A stretch of DNA of 43,996 bases from Candidatus Ozemibacteraceae bacterium (lineage in GTDB: Bacteria > Muiribacteriota > Ozemobacteria > Ozemobacterales > Ozemobacteraceae). Below the pieces are notes generated by a model. That model had not been told where the DNA came from. It worked only from the letters and a program-made list of their open reading frames with translations, and made no database searches. Both the position numbers and the translations under genes were made by a program. Shown in pieces: positions 10,932 to 43,996 of this stretch; position 1 is the first letter of the stretch; the number at the start of each line of letters is the position of its first letter. Where the stretch lies: positions 1 to 43,996 of the forward strand of contig JAGOCE010000002.1 in the NCBI GenBank assembly GCA_017998915.1. The letters are read 5' to 3'.

Positions 10932-11753
10932 TCAGCGTCCGTGCAGAAATTTCGCCTCAACCCATGCGTGGTACATGTCCATGACGTTGAGAAGCGGTTG
11001 CATGCCGCAATAGAAGACGAACAGGAACGCCACGCACAGATATGGGCCGAAGGGGATCATGTGCGTGAGCGGCTTGTATTGACGGTGATATCGTATTTTC
11101 TGGTATATGATGCTGCTGACGCCGCCGATGGTTCCGAGGAGGCTGGCGAGGATGACGATCGCGATGACCGGTTTCCAGCCCATCCAGGCGCCGAAGGCGG
11201 CGAGCAGTTTCACGTCACCGCCTCCCATGCCTTCCTTTTTCAGGATTTTCCAGGCAAGCCAGCCGAGCGCCCAGAGAAACCCGCCCCCGAGAAGAAAGCC
11301 CAAAATGCTGTCGGTGAGCGTCACGTAGTGCTGCGGCGGCTGTTTTCCGAGCGGCGACGTCCAGATCCAGCAGGCCATGGCATAGGCAAGCCCGGCCCAA
11401 CTGCCGTTGATCGACAGTTTGTCGGGTATGATGAGGAATCTGACGTCGACGACCGTGATGATCATGCATGAAACGCCGAAGACCCAGGAAAGAGCGGCCT
11501 TCGTGCCGATCCCCCAGATGCCGACGGAGAGACCGGCCAGCGCAGCCGAGAAGACCAGGTAGGCGAGGTCCTGTTTTTTCCCTGCGTTCACGCAGCCCCG
11601 ACGAAGACCTCCAGGACAGGTGTGGCATTTTGTATAGTCCTCGAGCAGATCCTCGTGGCCGGGCCACGAGCGTATTGCCCATGATATACGAGGTCCGATG
11701 GCCGCACCGAGAATCACGGCGACTATCACGCCCAGAATGTCGGGAAGAGACAC
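10932..11753 (-). CDS. pilD: Type IV prepilin peptidase / N-methyltransferase
   Basis: PilD cleaves leader peptides of type IV prepilins and methylates the new N terminus in the inner membrane. The 273-residue protein has about eight membrane segments. Its two catalytic aspartates lie in VVDVRFLIIPD (Asp 103) and GMGGGDVKLLAA (Asp 180). The N-terminal cytoplasmic loop has cysteines at 43, 46 and 54 (CHTC, then GC). The usual zinc site has four, so this one looks reduced. Six bases separate it from the agmatinase stop. It is the only pilus-processing enzyme in the window and presumably serves the minor pilins encoded at 26-30 kb and 39-41 kb. Confidence 0.92.
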   Translation of the reverse strand: MSLPDILGVIVAVILGAAIGPRISWAIRSWPGHEDLLEDYTKCHTCPGGLRRGCVNAGKKQDLAYLVFSAALAGLSVGIWGIGTKAALSWVFGVSCMIITVVDVRFLIIPDKLSINGSWAGLAYAMACWIWTSPLGKQPPQHYVTLTDSILGFLLGGGFLWALGWLAWKILKKEGMGGGDVKLLAAFGAWMGWKPVIAIVILASLLGTIGGVSSIIYQKIRYHRQYKPLTHMIPFGPYLCVAFLFVFYCGMQPLLNVMDMYHAWVEAKFLHGR

Positions 11754-26386: not shown

Positions 26387-28174
26387 TCAGCGGTCGCGGA
26401 AGGTGGTGACGCGCTCCGAGATGTTGAAGCAGACGTTGTTGCCGGTCTGGCTCTTGAGATTCGAGTCGTAGTTGATGAAGACGCGCTTGGGCATCAGAAC
26501 CGGCCCCTCTTCCTTTTCCATGCGGTTGAGGTTCTCGACGGCGAGGTTGCCCAGGATCGAGATCTGTTCGCCTCCCTTGATGCTGTTCTTCGCATAGATG
26601 GCGGATTCGACCTTCGCTTTCGTCATTCCCTGGCGAAAGGTAACGAGGCCGTTGAGCGCGACAACGGAGAGGAAGCTGTCGGCGCTGTCGTGGATGACGT
26701 TGTCCGTCAGGATCACGTTGCCCTCGGTGACGATCATCGCCTGGCCCGAGATGCGGCCGCCGAGATACACGTTCCCCTGCACGTAGACGATGCCCCAGAG
26801 GGCGGCGGGGCGAGCATACGTTCCCTTCACGCTCAGGTCGCCCTCGTAATATTCGTGTGCATATTCTTTCGCATGTTTTATTATGCGATCGAGCTGAAGG
26901 GGCATGAGCTTGTCGGGATGCCGTGACGTGAAGTCGAACTTGGTATTGATCGTGTATGGGTCCGAGCTCGGGTAGGGCGTCTCGGTGATGCCCAGAACGT
27001 AGGGTTTGAGTTTCTGGTAATACCGGATGATCTCGCCCTCGTAATACGTGTATTTGCTCAGATATGGATCGTGGAGCTGGTTGTTGCAAAACAGATAACC
27101 GATCTCGGGCCGCTGATGCGAGAAGATGGAGTTATCCTCGAAATAGTTGATGATATCGTCCGCGGCGAAAAACGGCAGATACACGTGCAGTCGGCCGTTC
27201 GTGCGGATCTTGCCCCAGAGATACGGATGCAGGTTCTGGATCGTCGTGTCGACGTAGTCCTTGATCTTCACGTCCGTGACCGACATGACGAGCTTGCGGA
27301 TCACCTTCAGCACCTTCACCTTGACGTCGCCCTCGAAGCTGATCATGTTGACGGCATTGGGCTCCCAGAACAGGGCTTCGGCGTTGTTCCCGAGGGTTTC
27401 CTGGACAGCCTCGTTCGTGCGTTTGACAACCTCGTCGATCATCTCCTTGAGCGAGCGGACGACGCTCCAGTTGCGGACGCGAAACTCGCCTTCCTTGATG
27501 TATTCGTCCTTCTTCCCCGACACGAACAGCGTGTAGTTCTCGGCCGGCGGCGTCAGGTCGCTGACCTTGAGGTCACGGATCATCTCGACCTTGCGCGAGG
27601 TATTCTTGAATGTACCTGTCGATATAAAACGCAGGTTTCCTTCCCAGCCACCCAGCGCCTTGTCGGCGTAGGTGTCGCGGTTCTGCTTCCGGTAGATCTT
27701 CAGCGGTGACGGCACCTCTTCATACTCGTCGATGTATGTCTTGAATGGCGTCAGCTTGAGGTTGGTGACCTCGACAAGCACTTCCGCCGTGCCGTTTTTC
27801 ATCAGCTCGCCGTCGGCGATCTCGATCTTGAGCTGGAAGTTCTCGGCACGGTCGATGTCGAGCAGCGCGAGCAGGCGGTCGTTGATCTCGCCCTCCTTGA
27901 GCAGCTTCTCGGTGAACAGCTCGCGCATCTTCACCTGGGCCTTCTCGATGCCAGCCTCGGCCAGGTAGTAGGCAACGATGCCATCGCCTTGCTTCGCGGT
28001 CTGGGCTCGTTCCTGCGTCATATACGTCACGAACATCGTGCCGAATATATACAGCAGGCCAACGACAGTCAGGAGCAGAAACATCGCGCTTCCACGCGCG
28101 CGGAGCCACCCGCGCCCCGCCGTTCCGCGCAGGGCGGGAGGCAGCGTGCGGTCAGGCGGTTCGCGGGAAATCAT
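26387..28174 (-). CDS. PilX-type large minor pilin-like protein
   Basis: This 595-residue protein opens with a short basic stretch and one membrane segment (GSAMFLLLTVVGLLYIFGTMFVTYM), then AYYLAEAGIEKAQVKM, the pattern of PilX N-terminal regions (a membrane helix followed by an A-x-x-AEAG-x-E segment). The rest is a large extracytoplasmic region with a beta-helix-like stretch (LWGIVYVQGNVYLGGRISGQAMIVTEGNVILTDNVIHD). It is much larger than typical PilX (about 200 residues). The start at 28174 is 14 bases after the prfB stop; the upstream extension reads antiphase in prfB. AT-rich codon islands occur near 26860-26885, 27615-27632 and 28020-28050. Confidence 0.65.
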   Translation of the reverse strand: MISREPPDRTLPPALRGTAGRGWLRARGSAMFLLLTVVGLLYIFGTMFVTYMTQERAQTAKQGDGIVAYYLAEAGIEKAQVKMRELFTEKLLKEGEINDRLLALLDIDRAENFQLKIEIADGELMKNGTAEVLVEVTNLKLTPFKTYIDEYEEVPSPLKIYRKQNRDTYADKALGGWEGNLRFISTGTFKNTSRKVEMIRDLKVSDLTPPAENYTLFVSGKKDEYIKEGEFRVRNWSVVRSLKEMIDEVVKRTNEAVQETLGNNAEALFWEPNAVNMISFEGDVKVKVLKVIRKLVMSVTDVKIKDYVDTTIQNLHPYLWGKIRTNGRLHVYLPFFAADDIINYFEDNSIFSHQRPEIGYLFCNNQLHDPYLSKYTYYEGEIIRYYQKLKPYVLGITETPYPSSDPYTINTKFDFTSRHPDKLMPLQLDRIIKHAKEYAHEYYEGDLSVKGTYARPAALWGIVYVQGNVYLGGRISGQAMIVTEGNVILTDNVIHDSADSFLSVVALNGLVTFRQGMTKAKVESAIYAKNSIKGGEQISILGNLAVENLNRMEKEEGPVLMPKRVFINYDSNLKSQTGNNVCFNISERVTTFRDR

Positions 28175-28188
28175 TGCATCGCGACGAA

Positions 28189-29335
28189 TCAGACTTCCTC
28201 TTCCTCCTCGCTGTCGGCTCCGATGCCGCGCGGTTTTTCGCCGGCGGCATGCCACTTGAGGTATCCGTTGACGAAACGATCGAGGTCGCCGTCCATGACG
28301 CCATGCACGTCGCTGGTCTGCTCGCCGGTGCGCAGGTCTTTCACCAACGTGTAGGGGCAGAACACATACGAGCGGATCTGACTTCCGAACGAGATATTCT
28401 TCTGATCACCCTGGAGGTTCTTCAGTTCCTTCTCGCGGCTCTCCTGCTGGAGCTTGTACAGTTTCGCCTTCAGCATGTTGAGCGCGACCTCGCGGTTCTG
28501 GTGCTGGCTGCGCTCGATCTGGCAGGCGACCACGATGCCCGTCGGCAGGTGCGTGATGCGAACGGCCGAGCTGGTCTTGTTCACGTGCTGGCCGCCGGCG
28601 CCCGAGCTTCGGAAAAAGTCGAGCTTGATGTCCTCGTCGCGCACTTCGATGTCCGCGTCGTCAGGCAGGACCGGTGTCACGTCAACCGCCGTGAAGCTGG
28701 TGTGCCGGCGCGCATTCGAGTCGAAGGGGGAAATACGCACGAGTCTGTGGACGCCCTTTTCCCCCTTGAGATACCCGTAGGCATAGGTGCCCTTCACGAG
28801 CAGGGTGACCGACTTGATGCCCTGCTCTTCCTCCTGCAGGTCCATCACTTCGTATTTGAACTCGTTCTTCTCGAGCCACCGGCAGTACATGCGGTACAGC
28901 ATCGACGCCCAGTCGCACGACTCGGTGCCGCCGGCGCCGGGCTTGATCGCGACGTAGCAGTCGGAGGCATCGTATTCCTCCGCCAGGAACGTCGTCAGCT
29001 CGATGCCGTCGAGTCTTTTGACGAGCGGGTCGAGCTGGGCAACCAGCTGCTCGAACATCGACACGTCGTGTTCCGCGTCGGCGATCTCGAGCAGGTCGGC
29101 AGTGTCCTTTATCTCCGCCGCGAGCGTCTCGAACGTCTCGCACGACTTCTTCAGTTCGGCGAGTTTCTGAGACGTGCTCTGGGCGCGGTTCCGGTCGGTC
29201 CAGAAATTGGGTTGTAACGTCAGCTCTTCAAGCTCTTGGATCTGCCTCTTTCGTCTGGGCAGGTCAAAGATGCTCACCGATGCCGGAGAGCCGTGACTTC
29301 ATTTCACGCAGGCGTTCTGCAATTGCAAAATCCAC
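28189..29335 (-). CDS. prfB: Peptide chain release factor 2, with programmed +1 frameshift
   Basis: RF2 ends translation at UGA and UAA. Translation starts at GTG 29335 (AGGAGG seven bases upstream) and reads 23 codons to CTT-TGA-C. A +1 shift on CTT then gives LDLPRRKRQIQELEEL and the rest, about 381 residues in all. The stop-recognition tripeptide SPF (RISPFDSNARR) and the catalytic GGQ (SSGAGGQHVNKTSS) are present. The zero-frame N terminus VDFAIAERLREMKSRLSGIG matches the usual RF2 start. The shift makes RF2 synthesis depend on its own level. It is unusual in lying between pilin-like genes at both ends. Confidence 0.95.
29263..29275 (-). promoter_or_regulatory. prfB programmed frameshift site
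   Basis: On the minus strand GGTGAG-CAT-CTT-TGA-C contains the slippery CTT, the in-frame TGA (29266-29264) with the unfavourable following C, and a Shine-Dalgarno-like GGTGAG three bases before CTT. This is the classical RF2 autoregulatory signal. Confidence 0.93.
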
Positions 29336-29363
29336 GGGTGTTCCTCCTGAGATGTCGTGCCCA

Positions 29364-29822
29364 TTACCGGGTCACGCGGTAGATGCGGCGGATGCTCTCC
29401 CCCAGGCCGTCAGCTTTGCCGCCGGCAACGATCTCGATCGTCATTTCGCCTTTCTCGAGATCGCGACTGCCGATGGAGAAACTGTCTATTCCATACGAGA
29501 GTGTATATGAGGCTGGAGCGTCCTCCGGTATGACGATGTCTTCGATGAACGAACTCGAAAGCGCGTTCCAGTCGCCTGTTGAAGCCCCTTCGAGCACGGC
29601 CATCGTCTCGGGAAGCTGGCGCTGCATGACCTTCATCTTGAGGAAGAAATGCTGCAGCGCCGATCGGGCCATGAAATACGCCTTTCTGAGCTTGAATGCA
29701 TACATGAAGCGGCCGCGACTGTTCGACATCGTCCAGGAGAGAGAGCCCACCCAGACGGCAAAGCAGAGAATGATGCCGAACACGATGGGAAGCGCGATGC
29801 CGCGGCGTCTGAAGGTGTTCAC
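29364..29822 (-). CDS. Small pilin-like membrane-anchored protein (PilX/GspK type N terminus)
   Basis: This 152-residue protein starts VNTFRRRGIALPIVFGIILCFAVWVGSLSW: a basic leader, one membrane helix, then FKLRKAYFMARSALQHFF, similar to the helix that follows the membrane segment in PilX-like proteins. The remainder is probably a globular pilin head. The start is GTG at 29822, overlapping the stop of the upstream prepilin gene (GTGA). The longer frame to 29876 lies inside that gene. It ends 28 bases before the prfB start and probably shares its transcript. Confidence 0.65.
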   Translation of the reverse strand: MNTFRRRGIALPIVFGIILCFAVWVGSLSWTMSNSRGRFMYAFKLRKAYFMARSALQHFFLKMKVMQRQLPETMAVLEGASTGDWNALSSSFIEDIVIPEDAPASYTLSYGIDSFSIGSRDLEKGEMTIEIVAGGKADGLGESIRRIYRVTR

Positions 29823-30319
29823 AGGTCGGCCTTGTATGCGACGAGGTCGAGCGAATGCGGGGTGGTGGTCCCCCACGTCGCTTTCAGAAGAAGACGCTTG
29901 TAGGAGTTATCGAGGCTGGTCCGTTCCATCCGTCCCGTTCGCGGATCGGCGACGGCGGAAAACTCGAGCGGCACCACTTCGACATCGAGGTCGAACCTGA
30001 TCTCCTGGACGCCAAGCTGGGCAGGTCTCAGATCGAGTAAGGCAGCACGCTTTCCATCTTCGCCGAAGTCCCGTCCGAGCCTGATATTCTTCGAGATGCC
30101 GACCGGCAGCGCATCGTAGGGCAGGGCCAAGGCCTGTTCCATCTTTTCCTCGAGGATGCTCATGACCTGGTGGTAATCACCGAGTTCGCTGCTGCCCTTC
30201 AGATACTCGATCAGAAACATCCCGATGGGCAGCAGAACCGTGGAAAGGATCGTCAGCGCGATCAGCACCTCGAGCAGCGTGATCGCCCTGCGTCGCGAAC
30301 TGTCCCGTCTCCGTTCCAT
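29819..30319 (-). CDS. Type IV minor prepilin, PilV/GspI-like
   Basis: This 166-residue protein begins MERRRDSSRRRAITLLEVLIALTILSTVLLP: a short basic leader, then the type III cleavage motif, with Ala in place of the usual Gly before ITLLEVLIAL and Glu at position 5. The hydrophobic helix continues into a small head domain. PilD would cut it after the RRRA. The ATG at 30319 gives a normal leader; one at 30349 would give a longer, hydrophobic one. A TGG-TATGCT word at 30336-30328 resembles local extended -10 promoters but would leave almost no leader. It is the first gene of the minor pilin and prfB run. Confidence 0.8.
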   Translation of the reverse strand: MERRRDSSRRRAITLLEVLIALTILSTVLLPIGMFLIEYLKGSSELGDYHQVMSILEEKMEQALALPYDALPVGISKNIRLGRDFGEDGKRAALLDLRPAQLGVQEIRFDLDVEVVPLEFSAVADPRTGRMERTSLDNSYKRLLLKATWGTTTPHSLDLVAYKADL

Positions 30320-30410
30320 GGTTGGTAAGCATACCACATTTTCCATCACCCTGACGACCCGGGAATAGCCATCCCGTTACGGCCGTTGGGGCGGGAATCC
30401 CCCGTACGTG

Positions 30411-39480: not shown

Positions 39481-40152
39481 TTACGGGGCCACGGCGGGGG
39501 GAGGGGGGAAGATGACGGGGCGGCTGGTGAAGAAGTCGGCAGTCGCGCCGTCGCTTTCGACCTCCATGGATCGGTATCGTTCGAGCTTCACCTCATACGT
39601 GAGAGTGGCGATTCTAAGCCGGGCCAGGAGTTGGGCCGAGTAGGTCGCCGAGACGGTGATGCCGTCCTCGATGTCCCGGTACATGCCCTGGGATTTCACG
39701 TAGTAGTAAAAGGGATTGATCGTGGTTCCGGAAGCCGCCGGGTAGCTCGTCACCCGGAACGCGACGGCGCTCGCCGTTTCGCCGCCCTCCAGGAGCCCGG
39801 TGGTGTCGGGGAAGATCCACTGGCTCGAAGCAACGTTGGTGAAGTCCGTGATGGGATTCAGCCCACCGAACCGGTTGGTTACCGAGTCAGATGTTCCATC
39901 GTAGGCGAAATACAGCCGTTTTTTCAGGGAACCGGGCGTGCTGTCGACGAGAAATGTACTGCTGGTGGCCATCAGCCTGGCAATCACATAGCTCACCCCG
40001 GCAAAGGCGGCGTCCTTCGCCCGCGCGATCTTGTCGACCGACGTCTGGACGCGCGTTTCCGTCTGGACCATCGTCACGTAGCTCGTCGAGACGGCCATCA
40101 TGAAGCCGAGCACGATAACCGTCAGGATGAGAGCCGCCGAGCCTCGTCGCAT
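39481..40152 (-). CDS. PilX-like minor pilin protein
   Basis: This 223-residue protein begins MRRGSAALILTVIVLGFMMAVSTSYVTMVQTETRVQTSVDKIARAKDAAFAGVSYVIARL: a basic leader, a membrane helix and a following helix in which DAAFAGVSYVIA takes the place of the PilX AEAG segment. The rest is a mostly beta head. The ATG at 40152 follows GGGGAGG by eight bases; a GTG at 40161 is less likely. It is the last gene of the second pilin operon. The spacer to the plus-strand gene at 39422 is short. Confidence 0.65.
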   Translation of the reverse strand: MRRGSAALILTVIVLGFMMAVSTSYVTMVQTETRVQTSVDKIARAKDAAFAGVSYVIARLMATSSTFLVDSTPGSLKKRLYFAYDGTSDSVTNRFGGLNPITDFTNVASSQWIFPDTTGLLEGGETASAVAFRVTSYPAASGTTINPFYYYVKSQGMYRDIEDGITVSATYSAQLLARLRIATLTYEVKLERYRSMEVESDGATADFFTSRPVIFPPPPAVAP

Positions 40153-40157
40153 CGAGG

Positions 40158-40811
40158 TCACCTCCCCGACGGGATGACGAACGTCATCGTGGAAAGCTTG
40201 CCTACGACCCGTTCGTCGTCGCCGCTCATCGAGCTTTCAATACCGATGGCTATATTCACCGTCCAGGACGACGTCCTCGTGGCCGTGAAGGCCGCGACGT
40301 CCCGGGCGACGGTGAACTCGTATCCGATCGGCAACGTGTTCGAGGGGGCACTGCCGTCGCTGTTGCTGTTGCTGATATCCACGGAGACGACCCTGGTAAT
40401 CTTGAATTTCGGCAAACTGCTCCAGGCGCTCGAGACGCTCGTGCTTTTGGCGATGATCCGTCGCCGCACGATCTTCTCGGCGGGAACCCATTCGAGCAGG
40501 AAAGTCGCGGTACCGACGTAGGTCGAGCCGCTCGAGATCGCGATATCGTATTTCAGGGCGGAAGAGGCCGGCCCGCTCACCCTGGGTTCGAGCACCTTGT
40601 CGGCCTGCTGGAGTTCGCGCTGGATCGTGTCGGTGACGGACCGGTAGTAGGAGCCCACGTCCAGTTTCTGGTGCCCGGTTTTCCACGCCTCGGAGCCGTA
40701 CTGGACGTAGGAGAGAAGCGAGACCGACATCAGGGCGAACACCGTCGAGGCGATCAGCACCTCGACCATCGTCAACCCTCTTTTGCGCCTGCGAAGTAGA
40801 TATAGCGTCAT
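40158..40811 (-). CDS. Type IV minor prepilin, PilW/GspJ-like
   Basis: This 217-residue protein starts with a basic leader ending in KRG, followed by LTMVEVLIASTVFALMSVSLLSYV, a clear class III prepilin motif (Gly before the cut, Glu at +5). PilD should process it. The long beta-rich head fits PilW or GspJ. The ATG at 40811 lies four bases after the previous stop. AGGAA sits at good spacing within the end of that gene. Confidence 0.82.
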   Translation of the reverse strand: MTLYLLRRRKRGLTMVEVLIASTVFALMSVSLLSYVQYGSEAWKTGHQKLDVGSYYRSVTDTIQRELQQADKVLEPRVSGPASSALKYDIAISSGSTYVGTATFLLEWVPAEKIVRRRIIAKSTSVSSAWSSLPKFKITRVVSVDISNSNSDGSAPSNTLPIGYEFTVARDVAAFTATRTSSWTVNIAIGIESSMSGDDERVVGKLSTMTFVIPSGR

Positions 40812-40815
40812 ATAT

Positions 40816-41373
40816 TTATTCCTCGTAAAAGTCCTCCGACGATCGGATTCCGATCGGCGTGATGTTCACCGTCATCACGGAAAGCCCGTAACTGAAGGTG
40901 GCCAGGCAGTCCGGCACCTGCGGCGCCTCGAACGTAGGCTCCATGACGAGCGTTCCGTCGGGTCGGAAAAAAATGGGCTCCGCGAACGGCGGGGAAAACC
41001 TGACCGCCGGATCGAACCCGACGACGCCCTCGCCCGTGATGTCGACCCAGGACGTGCTGTCAGGCTTCGCCCAGTCATGAGGATGAACTTCGGTCGGCGC
41101 GTTGAACCAACCCGGCTTCACATACTCGTCGAGCCTGTATCCCGTTCCATCTGACATAAAATACAATCTATGATATATTTGCATCTCCATCGCCCGATAC
41201 TGGGCCATCCGGACGTTCTGGATGAACTGGCTCGCCTCGGCGGCGATCCTCTGCGACGCGAAGAAGTTGTCCATCGCCGGCAATGTCACGCTCGCCATCG
41301 CCGCGATGATGGAAAGTGCCGCCAGCACCTCCATCAGCGTATAGCCAGCCCGTTCGCGTCGCGTCGGATTCAC
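40816..41373 (-). CDS. Type IV minor prepilin, FimU/GspH-like
   Basis: This 185-residue protein begins with GTG at 41373 overlapping the stop of the large surface protein (GTGA). The leader RRERAG is followed by YTLMEVLAALSIIAAMASVTLPAM, with the cleavage Gly and the Glu at +5. The segment ASQRIAAEASQFIQNVRMAQYRAM matches the GspH/FimU helix after the membrane segment. A codon island near 41155-41185 is very AT-rich. Confidence 0.82.
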   Translation of the reverse strand: MNPTRRERAGYTLMEVLAALSIIAAMASVTLPAMDNFFASQRIAAEASQFIQNVRMAQYRAMEMQIYHRLYFMSDGTGYRLDEYVKPGWFNAPTEVHPHDWAKPDSTSWVDITGEGVVGFDPAVRFSPPFAEPIFFRPDGTLVMEPTFEAPQVPDCLATFSYGLSVMTVNITPIGIRSSEDFYEE

Positions 41374-43996
41374 GGCCTGTACCTGAGAATCTGTTTACTG
41401 GTCCCGTTGTTCGATCCCGTCGAGCCACCCATCAGATAGATAAAAGGCCCCACTGGAACAGCATTGATGCCTTTCGTTGCATTACCCGAGCCCCCGCTCC
41501 AGAGGATCTGCGCGGGAATTTCCTTGACCTTGCGCACTCTGTTCGTCTCGGGATTCCACGCGGCGGCTGACGTCAGGAGGGTGGCGGCTGGATTTTCCCC
41601 ACCGAATATGAATATCTCGTTTCCAAAGGAACAGGCACCGGCACACTGACGCTTGAACAGGTTGGAAGGATCGAGAAACTTGCTTTTGTCCGCAATGTCC
41701 GACTCGAGAGCCGTCTGTGCAAGCTGAACCCAGACATTCGTACCAGGGTCGAACCTGTCGACCGTTGCAAGGATATTCGTACCATCGCTCCCCCCCACAC
41801 GATAGAGCTTGTCTTTATGCCAGACAAGGCTGTGATTCATCCGTTTACCGGGCATTGGAGGAAGTTCCCGGCTGATGCCAAAAAAATAGGGACGCGCACC
41901 TTCCATGATCTTCCGTATTTCGACCTGGCTCAGGACCCGATCGTAGATGATCAGATCATCGATCTTCCCGTTCCACCAACGGTCATTCAACCCGTTCGAT
42001 CCGAGTCGGACGGCGCCTGCCGTCGTCCAGACCGCAGCAGCAGTCGTGTTCAACGCACCATCGTAGTAAATCTTCGTTGCAGAACCTTCTTTGACGATCG
42101 CAATATGTTTCCAGGCTTTGTCATTGTCCGGAATCGATGTTGGATATTCCGAGCCCCCGATTTTCAAGGAATAGCATCCCGCAACCAAAGCTGAGCTTCT
42201 GAACTGGAATCCGGAAGAATCGTTGGCCGCCTGGCAAAACGGCCCGGACCAATCCGTTAACGTCGTCGTTTCTTCTTTCATCCAAAAGCAAATGGAAACG
42301 ATGTCTCCCGTCAAGGCAGAGAGCGTCACGTTATCGTTCGAACCATCGAAAGCCAGGCAGGTATTTTTCCTGCCCGCAACCCAGCACCCTGGAGAGGTCA
42401 TGCTGTTGAGCGTTCCATCGAATCCATTTCCGGACGAGTCGACGGCCGTATTTCCAGCTGTTTCATCGAATCGGAGGCAGGCAAGGGGAGTCGACGGCTC
42501 TACGGGACCGAGATCCATCAACGCTTTGATCTCCGTGACGGGCAATGCACGGTCGTAGAAAACGACATCATCCAAAACCCCCTTGAAAGGCTCCGTACCC
42601 GATTGATTGCATCCGACACGGGTCACTCCTGGGGAAATGGCGTTTGGAACGGGATTTCCTGTAACGGCAACCTCTCCACCATTGACGAACATCTTCCATG
42701 TCCCGGCAACGCGCACCGCTGCCAGATGAGTCCATGTATCATTTACTATAGAATATCCCGAGTCCGCAAAGCCGACTCCTCCGCAGACAACCTTCACGAC
42801 ACCGGATGAATCGATGAACAAGGCATAGCCCTGCGTCGAGGTGTTGCCGTTGACCAGGATCATCTGATTTGTGCCCGTCGACCCGGTGCGTTTCACCCAC
42901 GCCGCCATCGTGATATTGTTCAGGGCGGTGAGAACAGCCGGAGCGGCCGTCGGAATATGATCGTCGATCCCGTCAAAATTCAGGCCATTCCCGTGCCTTC
43001 CTGAAATCCAGCATCCTGGGGCAGAAAATCCTGTCAAGGCTCCTGGGTGCAATCCTTCCGATGAGTCGGCGGCGGTGGTACCGGAAATTTCATCGAATGC
43101 ATACCAGAATGTCGGGGTTGGGGGAACGGCTGGAGGATCGGCAGGAGTCCCGGAGGCAATGGCGTGGGGCCAGTAGATCTGAACTGAGCTGGTGGCACCG
43201 GAAGGAGTGACGCCACCACCGATCACCGGTCCGTATGGGGTCATACAACCGGCATGGCTATGTCGGAGAATCACCGTCGAGTTGTCGTCCCCTAGCGTTT
43301 TTGTCATGTAAGCTCCCGGGAGAAGCGGGGACTCCGTCGGGGGAGACTGGGTGCTGTAAAACTCGACTTCAGGGCATTTGATCTGTGAACCACCGTAGAC
43401 ACTCTCATTGACAAAGCGATAGTAGCGATATGGGGTCGTATTGCTGAGGCAAAAAATGTCCCATGTTCCATTCTTGGGTTTCTCGAGCGAGCCGGATATA
43501 TCAACCCAGGAAGCATCGTCGTTACATGCCTGTATTTTGAAATTTCGGGTGGTTTCGGCGACACCGGAACCTTGCCCTCTGACTCGTATAATATCAACTA
43601 TTTCAACGCCACCGAGATCGATCCTGACCCAGGCACTCGTCACCCCGCTTGTTTCCCACCACGTCGCCGTGTTTCCGTCGAAGATCTTCCATCCGCTGCC
43701 GCCGACTTCCGTTTGAGCCACGACAGAAGCAGGTGCGGGCGCATTTGCAGACGTCATGGTCGGAGAAATTTTCCGAACTCCCGCTAGATAGAAGCGGAAT
43801 TCTCGTTGCACCCAAGCAAGCACGCCACCATGGTTGTCCGTACAGGTGATCTTATAGCACTGATACGGAATCGTATTCGGAATATTCAACACCGTATTGA
43901 ATACGTCACTTTCAGGAACGGTCACATTGCCCAGCAGAGTCCACGGTCCTCCAGCGGAGTCAGCCCCTTCTATGGTAAGACTTTTCATACCCTGGT
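41370..43996 (-). CDS. Large surface protein with discoidin, LamG and kelch modules (5' end outside window)
   Basis: At least 872 residues are visible and the frame stays open at the right edge, so the true start is not seen. The ATG at 43988 is probably internal. In order: the end of a discoidin (F5/8 type C-like) domain, a second one with GWKIFDGNTATWWETSG and WVRIDLGGVEIVDIIRVRG, two LamG-like domains (about 290-495 with LNFDGIDDHIPT, and 498-695 with LAFDGSNDNVTL and WKHIAIVKEGSATKIYYDG), then kelch-type repeats (NHSLVWHKDKLYRVGGSDG, GNEIFIFGGENPA, GPFIYLMGGS). Such modules bind sugars or proteins outside the cell. Its stop overlaps the start of the first minor pilin gene, so it belongs to that operon. 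Codon use is less GC-biased than in its neighbours. Confidence 0.8.
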   Translation of the reverse strand, partial: QGMKSLTIEGADSAGGPWTLLGNVTVPESDVFNTVLNIPNTIPYQCYKITCTDNHGGVLAWVQREFRFYLAGVRKISPTMTSANAPAPASVVAQTEVGGSGWKIFDGNTATWWETSGVTSAWVRIDLGGVEIVDIIRVRGQGSGVAETTRNFKIQACNDDASWVDISGSLEKPKNGTWDIFCLSNTTPYRYYRFVNESVYGGSQIKCPEVEFYSTQSPPTESPLLPGAYMTKTLGDDNSTVILRHSHAGCMTPYGPVIGGGVTPSGATSSVQIYWPHAIASGTPADPPAVPPTPTFWYAFDEISGTTAADSSEGLHPGALTGFSAPGCWISGRHGNGLNFDGIDDHIPTAAPAVLTALNNITMAAWVKRTGSTGTNQMILVNGNTSTQGYALFIDSSGVVKVVCGGVGFADSGYSIVNDTWTHLAAVRVAGTWKMFVNGGEVAVTGNPVPNAISPGVTRVGCNQSGTEPFKGVLDDVVFYDRALPVTEIKALMDLGPVEPSTPLACLRFDETAGNTAVDSSGNGFDGTLNSMTSPGCWVAGRKNTCLAFDGSNDNVTLSALTGDIVSICFWMKEETTTLTDWSGPFCQAANDSSGFQFRSSALVAGCYSLKIGGSEYPTSIPDNDKAWKHIAIVKEGSATKIYYDGALNTTAAAVWTTAGAVRLGSNGLNDRWWNGKIDDLIIYDRVLSQVEIRKIMEGARPYFFGISRELPPMPGKRMNHSLVWHKDKLYRVGGSDGTNILATVDRFDPGTNVWVQLAQTALESDIADKSKFLDPSNLFKRQCAGACSFGNEIFIFGGENPAATLLTSAAAWNPETNRVRKVKEIPAQILWSGGSGNATKGINAVPVGPFIYLMGGSTGSNNGTSKQILRYRP

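Follow-up and report, generated by a model that had tools for sequence, protein, structure and literature searches.

A probable giant modular type IV pilin with exchangeable binding modules in Candidatus Ozemibacteraceae

We analysed a stretch of 43,996 nucleotides from a Candidatus Ozemibacteraceae bacterium (assembly GCA_017998915.1, contig JAGOCE010000002.1; hereafter the window), in which a large open reading frame (ORF) with discoidin, LamG and kelch domains ends on the first of three small minor-pilin genes. We propose that this large gene is probably the 3′ part of a gene for a giant modular type IV pilin of about 2,100 residues, which would be displayed at the pilus tip and bind glycans. 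In this uncultured bacterium, the giant is probably the sticky end of retractable pili, a job that is done by the unrelated PilY1 in many other bacteria.

Results

The large ORF and its domains

The host genome is 4.28 Mb in 515 contigs and is 80% complete, and the window is the entire contig C189 (below, C denotes contigs, G genomes and L loci of relatives). Thus, the 5′ end of the large gene is missing. The ORF (43994-41370, minus strand) has 874 visible codons and is open to the contig end. The last 160 bases of the window were used as a query for an overlapping contig, and the sole match was the window itself. The stop codon of the ORF (TGA, 41372-41370) overlaps the GTG start of minor pilin 1 at 41373 as GTGA (4-base overlap). 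In addition, the giant gene and the three small pilin genes are all on the minus strand, and neighbouring genes either lie a few bases apart or share a few bases.

Pfam search of the window protein found Laminin_G_3 twice (E 4e-40), Kelch_1 twice (E 3e-17), and F5/F8-type C. The original prediction of a discoidin/LamG/kelch ORF that ends on a minor-pilin start was therefore confirmed by the Pfam domains and the GTGA overlap, far beyond chance. It had described a single discoidin, which is present; however, a second, partial discoidin (residues 1-75) had been overlooked. As these residues form the C-terminal end of a preceding discoidin, the window protein has its discoidins in tandem (Table 1). 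Misassembly was considered and rejected, as uninterrupted single ORFs of the same design occur in more than 10 genomes. Chance domain matches were also rejected, with E-values down to 4e-40.

Table 1. Positions of the candidate giant pilin gene, its domains and related genes in the window
Feature	Position	Strand	Evidence
3′ part of candidate giant modular-pilin gene	41370..43996	-	ORF open to contig end; complete homologues of 1,440-2,414 residues with N-terminal prepilin signal
First discoidin domain, C-terminal part (residues 1-75), insertion site 1	43770..43994	-	Aligns to tandem-discoidin insert of L062/L063 (~317 residues); weak self-match to second discoidin, E=0.002
Discoidin (F5/8 type C), about residues 90-215 (Pfam match residues 100-198), insertion site 1	43350..43727	-	PF22633 E 1.6e-13; PF00754 E 1.2e-9
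Conserved kelch blade between insertion sites, residues 226-285, CMTPYGPVIGGGV	43140..43319	-	In 13/13 compared homologues, mostly E <1e-14; contiguous with flanking blades in L069 and L072
LamG / ConA-like lectin module 1, about residues 295-494, insertion site 2	42513..43112	-	PF13385; 49% identity to G005 homologue
LamG / ConA-like lectin module 2, about residues 500-703, insertion site 2	41886..42497	-	PF13385; 53% identity to G005 homologue
Terminal kelch blades of propeller, residues 705-874, end ...LRYRP	41370..41882	-	Kelch_1 E 3e-17; kept in 13/13 compared homologues
Minor pilin 1, GspH/FimT-like, Glu5, Pro22, GTG start in GTGA overlap	40816..41373	-	PF07963 at cut-off; NCBIfam ComGE/ComGD/GspH E 1e-6 to 2e-5, below cut-offs; alignment A5
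Minor pilin 2, PilW/GspJ-like by N-terminal sequence	40158..40811	-	PF07963 E 2e-5, over cut-off; alignment A4
Minor pilin 3, GspK/PilX-like, without Glu5, probable start ATG 40152 behind GGGGAGG	39481..40161	-	Homologues in 21 genomes; alignment A3
Probable prepilin peptidase, A24-type aspartate motifs DVRFLIIPD and GMGGGDVKLL	10932..11753	-	Motifs only, sequence read directly

Prepilin signals at the N-termini

The homologues were first picked by their match to the visible C-terminal part, and this choice was thus blind to the N-terminus; later ones were picked by an N-terminal profile (A6). Complete homologues in the same family of 'Candidatus Riflebacteria' have 1,440-2,414 residues. A class III prepilin signal (G or A / x-x-x-x-E, the slash following position -1) was found in every N-terminus read, about 20 in all, for example KKRG/FTLVEALVATIITGYCILPIVGTLHMG and MRKG/ITLVEALIMVIIAGSCMVPILGTLNHG. 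In an alignment of 18 N-termini, which takes in two distant giants from another family (G026), Glu5 and Pro19 were invariant (18/18) and position -1 was Gly or Ala. At L068 in G011, one ORF (L068:12062) has its prepilin signal 48 residues in and was skipped by the first motif search, and in another (L068:5607), which is split over several frames, no N-terminus could be read. The giant N-termini are nearest to the PilV, ComGE/ComGF, and GspI models with weak scores, and some also weakly match XpsI and HpsC. Glu5 is the residue that drives subunit docking into the filament (PMC10191384). Because the complete relatives start with a prepilin signal, the giant itself would be a modular pilin and not a PilY1-style adhesin carried by pilins; with its own signal, it would need no separate adaptor.

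In the host genome, profile A6 gave one match only at E ≤ 1e-8 (C181:9793-9915, E 2.7e-16). Contig C181 is 9,916 bases long, and an ORF from GTG 9721 behind GGGAGGG runs off its end. This ORF reads MTALARRLARVTRRFRRLLGTGARTRWG/MTFAEALVMVVVAGTLMIPVVGTLQTGVDRTSAYVHQ (...TRWG/MTFAEALVMVVVAGTLMIPVVGTLQTGVDRTSAYVHQ), which is a prepilin signal. Meanwhile, the sole copy of the C-terminal part in this genome is that of the window, and the orientation of the C181 and C189 ends fits one gene. By comparison with L067, about 1,150 codons (~3.5 kb) lie between the two ends, and this stretch is on no contig. The C181 ORF is very probably the 5′ end of the window gene.

These N-termini bear on the view of the original prediction, in which the large protein is an analogue of PilY1, that is, a Sec-secreted non-pilin adhesin that the three minor pilins would hold at the tip. 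The size of the protein, its C-terminal propeller, its place next to minor pilins, and the absence of PF05567 (PilY1) from these genomes would agree with it, and the graft-a-module design is common to PilY1 and modular pilins (PMC8179133). However, every N-terminus that was read among the relatives carries a prepilin signal with Glu5, as does the sole matching N-terminus of the host genome. We consider this view very unlikely, and a PilY1-like secreted cap is wrong in kind. The broader idea of a pilus-linked, probably adhesive protein beside minor pilins and not homologous to PilY1 is supported. PF05567 had no match in the window protein at E ≤ 1; complete relatives had none at E ≤ 0.01. Integrin-binding and calcium sites like those of P. 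aeruginosa PilY1 were also looked for, and the window protein has neither an RGD nor an EF-hand-like loop; among 13 relatives there were one RGD and merely scattered, unconserved EF-hand-like loops.

A kelch chassis with two insertion sites

The C-terminal kelch scaffold is unbroken in L069 and L072, and the other homologues have it interrupted at one of two fixed positions or at both. The inserts range from 0 to 948 residues at site 1 and from 5 to 720 residues at site 2 (Table 2). By these comparisons, the kelch propeller predicted at the C-terminus forms a conserved chassis, and its two fixed insertion sites hold discoidin, LamG, legume-lectin, or NHL modules or are empty. L067 and L071 come from one genus and their N-terminal halves share 44% identity, but their modules are different. 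G011 has several giant paralogues, and the modules differ between them. A constant chassis with variable binding modules is the pattern that is expected of a specificity device. Furthermore, lactonase, THOC3, WD40, and PD40 models gave weak matches, and the region between the helix and the kelch domain may thus contain at least one more propeller.

Table 2. Insert lengths (residues) and Pfam modules at the two sites of the kelch scaffold
Homologue	Site 1	Site 2	Modules
L062	317	8	discoidin (site 1)
L063	317	8	
L064	304	11	discoidin (site 1)
L065	148	8	discoidin (site 1)
L066	310	12	
L067	225	419	LamG (both sites, three stretches)
L068a	169	613	LamG and discoidin (site 2)
L068b	0	720	LamG and legume lectin (site 2)
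L069	0	7	
L070	0	266	legume lectin (site 2)
L071	948	5	NHL repeats (site 1)
L072	0	6	
L082	370	7	
Window	at least 208	420	discoidin (site 1), LamG (site 2)

In G011, we also observed an island of ~30 kb (G011:C127:131000-161000, including L068 and L069) with four or five giant genes, several small-pilin sets, and differing lectin modules; one copy is split into several frames.

Minor pilins, gene order and distribution

Pilin 3 has a hydrophobic, pilin-like N-terminus (MRRG/SAALILTVIVLG...) that is kept in 21 genomes of the relatives set. It had no Pfam match, and its pilin character comes from the alignment. Residue +5 is not Glu in pilin 3 and throughout its homologue alignment (A3), and the subunit that caps the tips of type 4 filaments lacks Glu5 (PMC10191384). 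Among the small-pilin homologues, GspH models matched 2 of 14 (best E 0.006), and PilW, PilX_N, and T2SSK gave no match for the J- and K-like ones. Solved structures were not matched by the pilin 2 or pilin 3 profiles, and the pilin 1 profile matched generic pilin helices only. As H-, J-, and K-like subunits are present and the giant weakly resembles PilV, ComGE/ComGF, and GspI, we infer that the I position is the most likely one for the giant.

Gene order was read from ORF maps of the relatives' loci. The giant and the small pilins are adjoining and co-oriented in 12 genomes, with small gaps or overlaps and varying order. The order was giant-H-J-K in the window, G007, G010, G016, G021, and G022, H-J-K-giant in G001 and G002, K-giant in G005 and G013 (followed by H-J in G013), and giant-K in G017, and G011 has several copies. 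The giant and the pilins of G023 are at two contig ends. In addition, short KKQRYSYADYLTWDDDNRYEIIDGEVFDMTSP-type genes, which look Uma2/DUF820-like by eye, recur beside or within the pilin cluster (L062, L063, L065, L066, L067, L071, L072, and L075).

The N-terminal profile at E ≤ 1e-12 matched 20 of 24 family genomes, 0 of 16 other members of the phylum, and 0 of 342 further genomes. At E ≤ 1e-8, it matched 23 of the 24 family genomes, and several of these matches were short pilin helices. The viral contigs searched with this profile gave no match. Meanwhile, PF05567 was found in none of the 40 phylum genomes (24 of the family and 16 further), and the same search was positive in 51 of the 342 others. 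The large protein had been called a possible non-homologous replacement of PilY1. The non-homology holds; however, replacement is too strong a word, for neither PilY1 nor the giant was found in other Riflebacteria families. Thus, we treat the replacement of PilY1 as a hypothesis and not as a result.

Larger proteins were observed in G026, which belongs to a different family of this phylum. There, single ORFs of 6,765 residues (L124:1804-19901 with L125:1-2200, G026:C17) and 3,788 residues (L123:1929-13295, G026:C11) open with the prepilin signals MRA/FTIVEILVTMILLSLALLPIS... and LKA/FSFVEILIAIMLLSLAILPIS...; they contain either numerous kelch repeats or repeats of the PD40 and beta-helix types. 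Judged by these features, the two ORFs are extreme giant pilin-like proteins. Directly downstream of the 3,788-residue gene, L123:13303-14982 encodes an FGE-sulfatase domain with kelch repeats.

Pilus machinery in the host genome

PilB and PilT were found over the NCBIfam cut-off on contig C451, beside a major-pilin-like gene. In addition, searches of the host genome gave 54 matches to N_methyl and 25 to T2SSE-family ATPases. For an incomplete genome of 4.3 Mb, such numbers indicate that many type 4 filament systems exist in parallel. In an alternative explanation, the giant is a pseudopilin in a filament for type II-like secretion or polysaccharide export, and it stays at the envelope and handles substrate instead of acting as an adhesin. 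This agrees with the several filament systems in the genome, with the H/J/K-type pilins that type II secretion systems and type IV pili have in common, and with the weak matches of some giant N-termini to GspI, XpsI, and HpsC. However, the genome has a PilB/PilT pair over the cut-off, and the lectin or ligand-binding modules differ among close relatives, which would be expected if they are specificity parts exposed at the surface. Thus, a pseudopilin is unlikely, and a pilus-borne giant pilin is preferred.

The prepilin peptidase candidate in the window had no NCBIfam or PDB sequence match. The window also contains a second pilin-like cluster (26387-30349, minus strand) with genes for a K-like protein of 622 residues, a K-like protein of 170 residues, and a pilin that resembles GspI (E 6e-4). 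Between these pilin-like genes lies one that is peptide chain release factor-like, and SecA is next to the cluster.

Discussion

By signal and design, the closest known proteins to the giants are PilB (vWA) and PilC (ConA-like lectin) of Streptococcus sanguinis. PilC is a lectin-carrying modular pilin that is proven to bind glycans via its ConA-like lectin (PMC8179133, PMC9934059), and this module is of a superfamily that takes in the LamG of the giant. Both the S. sanguinis proteins and the giants have a class III prepilin signal with Glu5 and C-terminally grafted ligand-binding domains and are encoded with other minor pilins. However, mature PilB and PilC are about 50 kDa with one module, whereas the giants have 1,440-2,414 residues, propeller regions, and two fixed plug-in sites. 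In addition, the giants have Pro19 and not the usual Pro22, their propeller chassis is without counterpart in PilB and PilC, and their candidate phylum is far from streptococci. A survey of modular pilins described 264 architectures, and the most extreme multi-domain case had 860 residues (PMC8179133); the giants are about two to three times longer.

PilC/PilY1 (PF05567) proteins resemble the giants in that they are very large and modular, have a propeller, lie near H/I/J/K minor pilins, and are presumed tip adhesins. However, PilY1 is not a pilin, and the giants have their own pilin helix and a kelch-type propeller and lack PF05567. By these profiles, PilY1 would have a similar role but is excluded as the family. 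The Verru_Chthon cassette A-D (TIGR02600, TIGR02599, TIGR02596) also combines small pilin-like proteins with one very large protein (A, model length 1,296). Its A, C, and D models weakly match pilin 3, pilin 2, and pilin 1, respectively (best 22 bits against a cut-off of 70), and the large protein A thus matches the K-like pilin here and not the giant. CofB-type large minor pilins of type IVb pili are minor pilins with extra domains at the tip (PMC8179133), but they are much smaller, form a trimeric adaptor for a secreted protein, and lack lectin or kelch modules. In the open-licence papers searched, no paper was found on the Verru_Chthon cassette, and none joined pilins with kelch domains.

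Based on sequence, architecture, gene order, and conservation, we infer the co-expression, processing, tip location, ligand, and adhesion of the giant as follows. The N-terminal prepilin signal would be cut by prepilin peptidase, and the hydrophobic helix with Glu5 would let the giant enter the filament. Behind the helix would come propeller-like repeats and then the C-terminal kelch propeller, two loops of which would hold interchangeable binding modules, here the tandem discoidin at site 1 and two LamG modules at site 2. The giant would be co-expressed with the three H-, J-, and K-like minor pilins, of which K, without Glu5, may cap the tip, and the giant would most likely be the fourth member, at the I/PilV-like position, of the complex that primes the tip of a type IVa pilus driven by PilB and PilT. 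The lectin modules would then be shown outside the cell, and the pilus could grip glycans or polysaccharide surfaces.

Several points weigh against this interpretation. The N-terminus of the window gene is not on the window contig, and its link with C181 is drawn across ~3.5 kb that is on no contig. The predicted structure (AlphaFold, the visible 874 residues and one homologue) had a predicted local distance difference test score of only 31.6, and the H/J/K assignment of the small pilins is weak by profile. Furthermore, the giant and the minor pilins are apart in 7 genomes (G004, G012, G009, G014, G018, G019, and G020; g5, g10, and g11) of about 20, a separation, confined to some genera, that the original prediction had named as telling against itself. 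Yet the giants there carry the prepilin signal where the N-terminus is present, so the nature of the protein is unchanged, and adjacency is kept in the 12 genomes described above.

The giants that stand alone in the g5, g10, and g11 genomes would also suit another explanation, in which the pilin-like helix is a membrane anchor only, the giant is a cell-surface sensor or adhesin outside any filament, and the pilin neighbours are incidental. However, the filament-docking residue Glu5 (PMC10191384) is invariant in the 18 aligned N-termini, and the giant is kept with small pilins, with small gaps or overlaps, in 12 genomes. We regard such an anchor as very unlikely, and we keep to a giant pilin that enters the filament.

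Tentatively, the results may be taken further. One Riflebacteria family might have swapped the PilY1 tip for a plug-in giant pilin, which consists of a helix and propeller chassis with two kelch sockets; the exchange of lectin, discoidin, or NHL cassettes in these sockets would retarget the pilus. In a tip complex with H, J, and K, such a pilin would act as the I-subunit, and its family might be the largest one of functional pilins known, and a related family would reach a pilin-like protein of 6,765 residues. Characterised modular pilins are about 50 kDa with one module, and here pilins of 1,400-2,400 residues would occur across a bacterial family without recognisable PilY1. This size raises the question of what limit assembly and passage through the secretin set on the growth of a pilin head. 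In addition, two fixed sockets with exchangeable lectins would offer a testable model for the evolution of pilus specificity.

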